Source: Pseudomonadota bacterium (lineage in GTDB: Bacteria > Pseudomonadota > Alphaproteobacteria > Acetobacterales > Acetobacteraceae). From it: a stretch of DNA of 39,105 nucleotides. Location: the NCBI GenBank assembly GCA_021780035.1, contig JAJXZO010000238.1, positions 1-39,105 on the forward strand, in the 5' to 3' direction. A program made the translations under genes and the position numbers. The notes beneath the pieces were generated by a model. It saw only the letters and a list, made by a program, of their open reading frames with translations, had not been told where the DNA came from and made no database searches. This document shows, one piece after another, positions 18,079 to 18,932 of this stretch; position 1 is the first letter of the stretch, and each line of letters starts with the position of its first letter.

Positions 18079-18552
18079 TCACGGCTTGTGGGCGACCGCG
18101 GGCTTCGCGGATTCACCCTCGAGGCGCGGGGCCGAAGCCTGCACCGGAATCCGGCGCGGCTTCAGCGCCTCGGGGATCTCCCGTCGCAACGCCACGCTCA
18201 GCATGCCGTTCTGAATGTCGGCGCCGTCCACCACGATGTGTTCGGCGAGCACGAAGCGGCGCTCGAAGGCGCGCGCGGCGATGCCGCGGTAGAGGACCTC
18301 GTTCTTCTGCCCCTCGGCCCCGCCGATGCGGCCGGAGATCAGCAGCGTGTTGTCCTGCACGGTGAGTTCGATGTCGTCCGGCCCGAAGCCGGCGACGGCC
18401 ATGGTGAGGACGTAGCGGTCCTCGCCGGTGCGTTCGATGTTGTACGGCGGATAGGAAAGATCCGCGCCGGCCGAAGCCGTGTCGAGCATGCGGGCGAGAT
18501 GGTCGAACCCGATCGCGGTACGGAAAAGCGGAGCGAAATCGAAAGCGTTCAT
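18079..18552 (-). CDS. Small heat-shock protein, Hsp20/IbpA type
   Basis: ATP-independent holdase chaperone of 157 aa that keeps unfolding proteins soluble. It has the IbpA/HspA-type N-terminus (FDFAPLFRTAIGFDHLARML), then the alpha-crystallin domain from about residue 35 to 130. Typical marks are YPPYNIERTGEDRYVLTMAVAGF, the dimer-loop YRGIAARAFERRFVLAEHI, and the strand GMLSVALRREIPEALKPRRI containing the IPI-like C-terminal anchor (RIPV). AGGAGG is 7 nt before the ATG. The 95-nt leader folds as a ROSE-type thermometer, and the promoter matches sigma32, so control is expected at both transcription and translation. Confidence 0.95.
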   Translation of the reverse strand: MNAFDFAPLFRTAIGFDHLARMLDTASAGADLSYPPYNIERTGEDRYVLTMAVAGFGPDDIELTVQDNTLLISGRIGGAEGQKNEVLYRGIAARAFERRFVLAEHIVVDGADIQNGMLSVALRREIPEALKPRRIPVQASAPRLEGESAKPAVAHKP

Positions 18553-18647
18553 CGCGGTACCTCCTGGAGCAGCAAGGTTCCATGTTCGGCCACCCGATGC
18601 GGGCCGGCCGTAGCCATTCTCCGGGACCCCACGGGGCATCCCGGACA
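18553..18647 (-). promoter_or_regulatory. ROSE-like RNA thermometer in the hsp20 5' leader
   Basis: The predicted leader folds into three consecutive hairpins: CCGGGA/TCCCGG with inner CCCC/GGGG (18644-18621), CGGCC/GGCCG with inner CCCG/CGGG (18610-18587), and a last stem ACCUUGCU/AGGAGGU around a 5-nt loop (18578-18559). The last stem sequesters the whole Shine-Dalgarno AGGAGG. It includes the UUGCU pentamer whose G has no Watson-Crick partner opposite the SD, the hallmark that makes ROSE hairpins melt at heat-shock temperature. ROSE elements are established for alphaproteobacterial hsp20 genes. This assignment rests on reading the sequence; no folding program was run. Confidence 0.8.
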
Positions 18648-18653
18648 ATGACG

Positions 18654-18683
18654 ATATGGAACAGGTTCCCCCCGCTTCAAGGG
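18654..18683 (-). promoter_or_regulatory. Sigma32 (RpoH)-like promoter of hsp20
   Basis: Reading the minus strand, CCCTTGAA is followed by 14 nt and TTCCATAT. This matches the heat-shock consensus (CNCCCTTGAA, 13-17 nt, CCCCATNT) in sequence and spacing. The start point would be near 18647, giving the 95-nt leader described above. The -35 region also lies in a small stem, CCCCCC/GGGGGG around TTGAAGC, which may act as a weak end signal for rpmE just upstream. Confidence 0.75.
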
Positions 18684-18704
18684 GGGCGGTACCACCGGCG
18701 AGGA

Positions 18705-18932
18705 CTACTTCCGCTTCAGGCCGAGGCCGCCGAACTTCTGGTTGAAGCGGGCCACGCGTCCTCCGGTGTCGATGATGCGCTGCACGCCGGTCCACGCCGG
18801 ATGCGACTTGGGATCGATGTCGAGCCGTAGGGTTTCCCCGGGCTTGCCCATGCAGGAGCGCGTCGTGAAGGTGGTGCCGTCGGTCATGATGACCGTGATC
18901 TCGTGGTAGTCGGGGTGGATGCCCGCTTTCAT
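18705..18932 (-). CDS. rpmE: 50S ribosomal protein bL31
   Basis: 75-aa large-subunit ribosomal protein that bridges the two subunits. The start [12 protein letters not shown] and the segment [25 protein letters not shown] are diagnostic. Only one cysteine (RSCMGK) is present, so it is the zinc-free C-minus form normal for alphaproteobacteria. An in-frame ATG five codons upstream (MERAA) exists, but homologues start with MK. It has its own promoter (18987-19015) and lies immediately upstream of the hsp20 promoter. Confidence 0.95.

Follow-up and report, generated by a model that had tools for sequence, protein, structure and literature searches.

A probable diverged ROSE-type RNA thermometer downstream of a sigma32-type promoter in the hsp20 leader of an Acetobacteraceae bacterium

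Introduction

How is the small heat-shock gene hsp20 controlled at a locus where it follows the ribosomal gene rpmE, and is its leader an RNA thermometer of the ROSE type? ROSE-like elements are defined by a U(U/C)GCU motif paired to the Shine–Dalgarno (SD) sequence within a leader of three to four hairpins, and they often lie behind sigma32 promoters (PMC3669281). According to the account of the Bradyrhizobium japonicum NMR structure in PMC11342760, G83, predicted to be bulged, forms a pair with a G on the opposite side of the stem. In the Acetobacteraceae, a ROSE element has been predicted with Rfam on the Hsp20 gene GOX_RS07835 of Gluconobacter oxydans 621H (PMC5756330).

Here, we analyzed a window of 39,105 nucleotides, an entire contig (JAJXZO010000238.1) of an Acetobacteraceae assembly, in which an initial annotation made from the sequence had read the region upstream of hsp20 as a complete heat-sensing module. 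Our analysis indicates that a sigma32-type promoter precedes this leader, which is very likely a diverged ROSE-type thermometer; hsp20 would then have two layers of control.

Results

A sigma32-type promoter lies between rpmE and hsp20

On the minus strand of the window, rpmE (ribosomal protein L31; 18705–18932; Pfam PF01197, 1.3e-25 for 18705–18929), with its ATG read from the sequence at 18932 and its stop codon at 18707–18705, is followed by hsp20 (18079–18552; 157 aa, ATG start; Pfam PF00011, 6.1e-17). The rpmE stop (18705) and the hsp20 ATG (18552) are separated by 152 nt, and since hsp20 is a PF00011 gene, the leader belongs to a small heat-shock gene, as do the leaders of the ROSE class.

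Within this interval, a −35 element, CCCTTGAA (18676–18683, a unique match), and a −10 element, TTCCATAT (18654–18661), are separated by a spacer of 14 nt (18675–18662), so that the whole motif CCCTTGAA-N14-TTCCATAT occupies 18683–18654 of the minus strand. It agrees with the sigma32 (RpoH) consensus NNCTTGAA-N(13-18)-CNCCATAT (PMC3669281), apart from a single C-to-T difference in the −10 octamer. A search for CTTGAA-N13..18-CCATNT gave a single match in the window, where 0.02 would be expected, and four matches across the 2.67 Mb genome. Among relatives, CTTGAA is found at 59 of 70 Acetobacteraceae loci and a spacing of 14–15 nt at 65 of the 70. The minus-strand promoter with an N14 spacer described in the initial annotation is thus borne out as a motif unique in the window; its position would put the transcription start at about 18646, and hsp20 would be transcribed with RpoH.

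The leader is predicted to fold into three hairpins, the last sequestering the SD

The predicted fold of the leader consists of exactly three hairpins. Hairpin 1 (18620–18645, minus strand) carries a bulged G at 18637, hairpin 2 (18587–18610) a bulged G at 18604, and hairpin 3, the putative thermosensor (approximately 18555–18580), a bulged G at 18573. In hairpin 3, ACCUU(G)CU (18578–18571) is paired to AGGAGGU (18565–18559), which contains the SD sequence AGGAGG (18560–18565; the ATG follows 7 nt further on). In this predicted fold the SD is sequestered by an imperfectly paired U(U/C)GCU motif with one unpaired G, in a three-hairpin leader, as in the ROSE class. The pattern ACCTTGCT-N3..7-AGGAGGT occurs once in the window, against an expectation of 0. 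A loop of 5 nt had been claimed for this hairpin; GCUCC is indeed the loop of the SD/anti-SD helix proper, but the minimum-energy fold adds a G–C pair, leaving CUC.

Single-sequence folding gave little statistical support for this structure: the z-score against shuffles was −1.76 when the whole leader was folded, and the SD hairpin, at −0.15, is no more stable than its shuffles. Taken with the G+C-rich sequence, such weak scores would fit the view that heat control of hsp20 is purely transcriptional and that a G+C-rich genome produced the hairpins by chance. We therefore base the significance of the structure on covariation among relatives. We collected 105 distinct leaders of hsp20 homologues and aligned 34 close ones, including that of the window. 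Over the 25 pairs of the three helices, 94.2% of alignment cells are standard pairs. Changes on both sides were found in 13 pairs, all among the 18 pairs of hairpins 1 and 2 (7 of 9 and 6 of 9, respectively), in 67 cells compared with 19 expected. The covariation score is 0.317, compared with 0.178 in shuffled alignments and at most 0.150 when the pairing partners were slid by 1–3 columns, and none of 500 shuffles matched the real alignment on any of five measures. These compensatory changes contradict a chance origin of the hairpins, which we regard as highly improbable.

Hairpin 3 is near-invariant. Because one of its strands contains the SD, this is to be expected, and conservation alone does not prove pairing there; 96.6% of its cells are paired in the 34 leaders, and 98 of the 105 leaders have the U(U/C)GCU...SD motif. 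One unpaired G stands in the 5′ arm of every hairpin, invariant in hairpins 1 and 2 and retained in 33 of 34 leaders in hairpin 3, which suggests a repeated structural motif. Both the roughly 95-nt leader with three consecutive hairpins and the UUGCU with an unpaired G opposite the SD, as initially annotated, are upheld by the fold and the related leaders.

Two variations were seen in the collection. Four rpmE-linked hsp20 leaders from Swaminathania, Asaia and Gluconobacter (L085, L087, L099 and L100) keep the promoter and hairpin 1 and have no UUGCU anti-SD motif; it is possible that the thermometer was lost or replaced there. In Gluconacetobacter azotocaptans (L050, ~1459–1482), a tandem anti-SD segment, AGACCTTGCTACAGACCTTGCT, precedes the SD, and its two copies could compete for the single SD.

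The leader is probably related to ROSE elements certified by Rfam

The Rfam search of the leader suggested in the initial annotation yielded no ROSE family at gathering score in the window, where 45 bits (RF00435) or 43 bits (RF02523) are needed. With lax settings and 401 bases, ROSE_3 scored 21.1 bits and ROSE 19.6 bits, both at full length and on the correct strand, and the ROSE model aligned end to end (1–94) in register with the SD. Likewise, no ROSE match at gathering score was obtained in 40 orthologue loci (20 from Acetobacteraceae and 20 from other alphaproteobacteria), among which the best sub-threshold scores were 40.4 (ROSE, L111) and 30.6 (ROSE_3, L053). ROSE elements above the Rfam threshold are present in 13 of 120 Acetobacteraceae genomes, where they adjoin more distant hsp20 paralogues wherever coordinates could be compared; certified ROSE and the branch of the window therefore coexist in the family. 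Because a gathering score is a database threshold and not a biological property, we call the leader ROSE-type and file it under neither accession. Other hits were set aside as chance, namely those to pRNA and snoRNA families of Rfam in the lax search and a weak RF00435 match on another contig (C84) of the same genome, inside a reading frame that by eye resembles polyphosphate kinase.

We then used the 34-leader alignment, with the window in the training set, as a covariance model (R1), under which the window scores 80.7 bits. R1 recovered Rfam-certified ROSE elements at two loci (L126, 2.5e-5; L118, 0.003) and four others weakly, with weak or no scores at the remaining certified loci; the model spans the SD and start codon, which could account in part for its scores on other hsp20 leaders. 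This reciprocal recovery gives moderate support, at the level of sequence and structure models, to common descent with the certified members. Nearly all R1 matches among the fetched loci are leaders that end at an hsp20 start. Of 189 additional genomes from the class, 14 contain R1 matches, and the three matches inspected (L135–L137) lie directly upstream of Hsp20. In the whole source genome, R1 has a single significant match, which also speaks against chance hairpins. From the structure shared among relatives and the recovery of certified ROSE by R1, we conclude that a sigma32-type promoter followed by a diverged ROSE-type thermometer is the best reading of the locus.

Predicted folding across temperature

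The initial annotation had proposed folding the leader at 30 and 42 °C. In ViennaRNA calculations the predicted opening of the SD was small, 4% at 30 °C and 8% at 42 °C. The proven thermometer E. coli ibpA, treated in this way, did not respond either (17% at 25 °C and 13% at 50 °C, no increase), so temperature folding cannot discriminate here. The combination set against the initial reading, no ROSE match together with an AGGAGG left open at low temperature, was found in its Rfam half and not in the other, since in the predicted fold the SD remains sequestered at every temperature calculated, up to 65 °C.

In E. coli, IbpA reportedly represses the mRNA that encodes it. The leader might accordingly be a structured 5′ UTR whose main reader is a protein, such as Hsp20, with temperature melting secondary. 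The small opening predicted between 30 and 42 °C would suit such a leader, and the strong covariation of hairpins 1 and 2, with their retained bulged G, would suit a scaffold recognized by a protein. Against this, the SD is paired by U(U/C)GCU, the ROSE hallmark, in nearly all leaders collected, and the two modes are compatible with each other. We consider a mainly protein-read leader unlikely.

For the ROSE-type thermometer that we favor, the sequence elements, the covarying structure, the SD pairing in the predicted fold and the likeness to certified ROSE members are directly supported. Upon heat shock, RNA polymerase with RpoH would start transcription near 18646 and produce a leader of about 95 nt, in which hairpins 1 and 2 would act as stable scaffolds and hairpin 3 would hold the SD paired to the UUGCU motif, in which one G is bulged. 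At low temperature this pairing would keep ribosomes off the SD; warming would presumably melt hairpin 3, and Hsp20 would be made. Homology and anatomy thus point to temperature-dependent translation of hsp20, and the phrase "complete heat-sensing module" would hold to the same extent.

The promoter is embedded in a hairpin that follows rpmE

The initial interpretation of promoter and leader stands, but it had missed that the promoter overlaps a hairpin that, in relatives, is probably the terminator of the upstream gene. In the window, a G+C-rich hairpin, CCCCCC-UUGAAGC-GGGGGG (18668–18686, minus strand; −13.2 kcal/mol), encloses the −35 element and is the counterpart of a strong hairpin in relatives. 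In most rpmE-linked relatives, this hairpin begins between a few and a few tens of bases past the rpmE stop and carries the −35 element at its tip; the promoter spacer is taken up by its 3′ arm, and behind it T-rich sequence continues into the −10 element, which interrupts the T residues in many cases. A strong hairpin over the −35 element is present at 42 of 57 rpmE-linked Acetobacteraceae loci. The median hairpin energy of these 57 loci is −24.1 kcal/mol, compared with −9.0 kcal/mol at 13 loci without a close rpmE and −7.4 kcal/mol at 33 loci of other alphaproteobacteria.

At 45 divergent loci, native hairpins had a mean energy of −20.3 kcal/mol and those with swapped 3′ arms one of −13.4 kcal/mol (sd 0.5), so the arms covary, and all nine consensus pairs in the relatives show compensatory changes. 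Moreover, another recognizable terminator is present at only 1 of the 42 strong-hairpin loci, compared with 3 of the 15 loci without one, a borderline difference (Fisher p 0.05). The four bases that precede the −10 element are enriched in T (2.44 versus 1.00, p 1e-7), an enrichment that could partly reflect the −10 element itself; the loci are mutually related, and these tests are not fully independent.

Supplementing the ROSE-type reading, these features argue that, in this family, the hairpin after rpmE is probably its intrinsic terminator, with DNA that also serves as the sigma32 promoter of hsp20. The window copy itself counts against this, as it has only six pairs, is followed by AACCTGTT with no T-run, and was negative in a terminator scan; in addition, a sister species keeps the hairpin behind a different upstream gene, with no rpmE. 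Judged from these sequences, an rpmE terminator and the hsp20 promoter appear to occupy the same DNA in most of the Acetobacteraceae, and the terminator appears to have decayed in the window. We lean slightly toward the broader proposal that, in this family, one segment acts as the rpmE terminator hairpin in RNA and as the sigma32 promoter of hsp20 in DNA, followed by the ROSE-type leader, with termination and heat-shock initiation competing or coupled.

Discussion

ROSE control of hsp20 is known; what is new is a branch below the Rfam thresholds and an unusual placement of its promoter. The leader resembles RF00435, the Bradyrhizobium hspA type, in preceding a small heat-shock gene, in having several hairpins, and in the UUGCU with an unpaired G that pairs to the SD in the 3′ hairpin. 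It differs from that family in reaching less than half of the score needed, in its anti-SD sequence (ACCUUGCU in the window, AUGUUGCU in RF00435), and in hairpin 2, which contains a bulged G and is without the long uninterrupted stem of the model. With ROSE_3 (RF02523) it shares the bulged-G first hairpin, GAU-G-CC...GGGUC, a bulge that is also present in the Rfam models; however, it likewise falls well below threshold there, the RF02523 model is shorter, and the second hairpin of that model aligns to hairpin 2 of the window and not to the SD hairpin.

At the level of motifs, the locus is also similar to the ibpA thermometers of E. coli and Pseudomonas, which combine a sigma32 promoter, a U(U/C)GCU/SD hairpin and a small heat-shock gene (PMC3669281), although the Pseudomonas form has two hairpins and the window leader three. 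The predicted ROSE of G. oxydans 621H (GOX_RS07835) is likewise an hsp20 leader from the Acetobacteraceae. It probably sits on an hsp20 paralogue, because the rpmE-linked Gluconobacter leaders L099 and L100 lack UUGCU.

At their thresholds, the Rfam models miss this branch across the Acetobacteraceae, a family that includes the acetic acid bacteria, in which tolerance of heat is important for fermentation. With the 34-sequence alignment and the model built from it, annotators could detect the branch. A sigma32 promoter overlapping a probable terminator hairpin is unusual and is kept over much of the Acetobacteraceae. If the proposed superposition is true, a growth-linked ribosomal gene would be terminated at the same bases at which heat-shock transcription is initiated. 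Our literature search found nothing relevant on a promoter inside a terminator or on rpmE–hsp20, which is weak evidence of novelty as subscription journals lay mostly outside the search.

The source genome contains a second hsp20 (L129, G000:C107:21700-22400), in which CUUCGCUCCAAGGAGG precedes a GTG start. As judged from the sequence, its leader possibly forms a short ROSE-like SD hairpin with a UCGCU variant; the RF00435 match there has an E-value of only 6.4. In one relative (G059, contigs C295 and C296), four ROSE matches over or near threshold lie on two contigs, and there are therefore probably several thermometer-controlled genes in that one genome.
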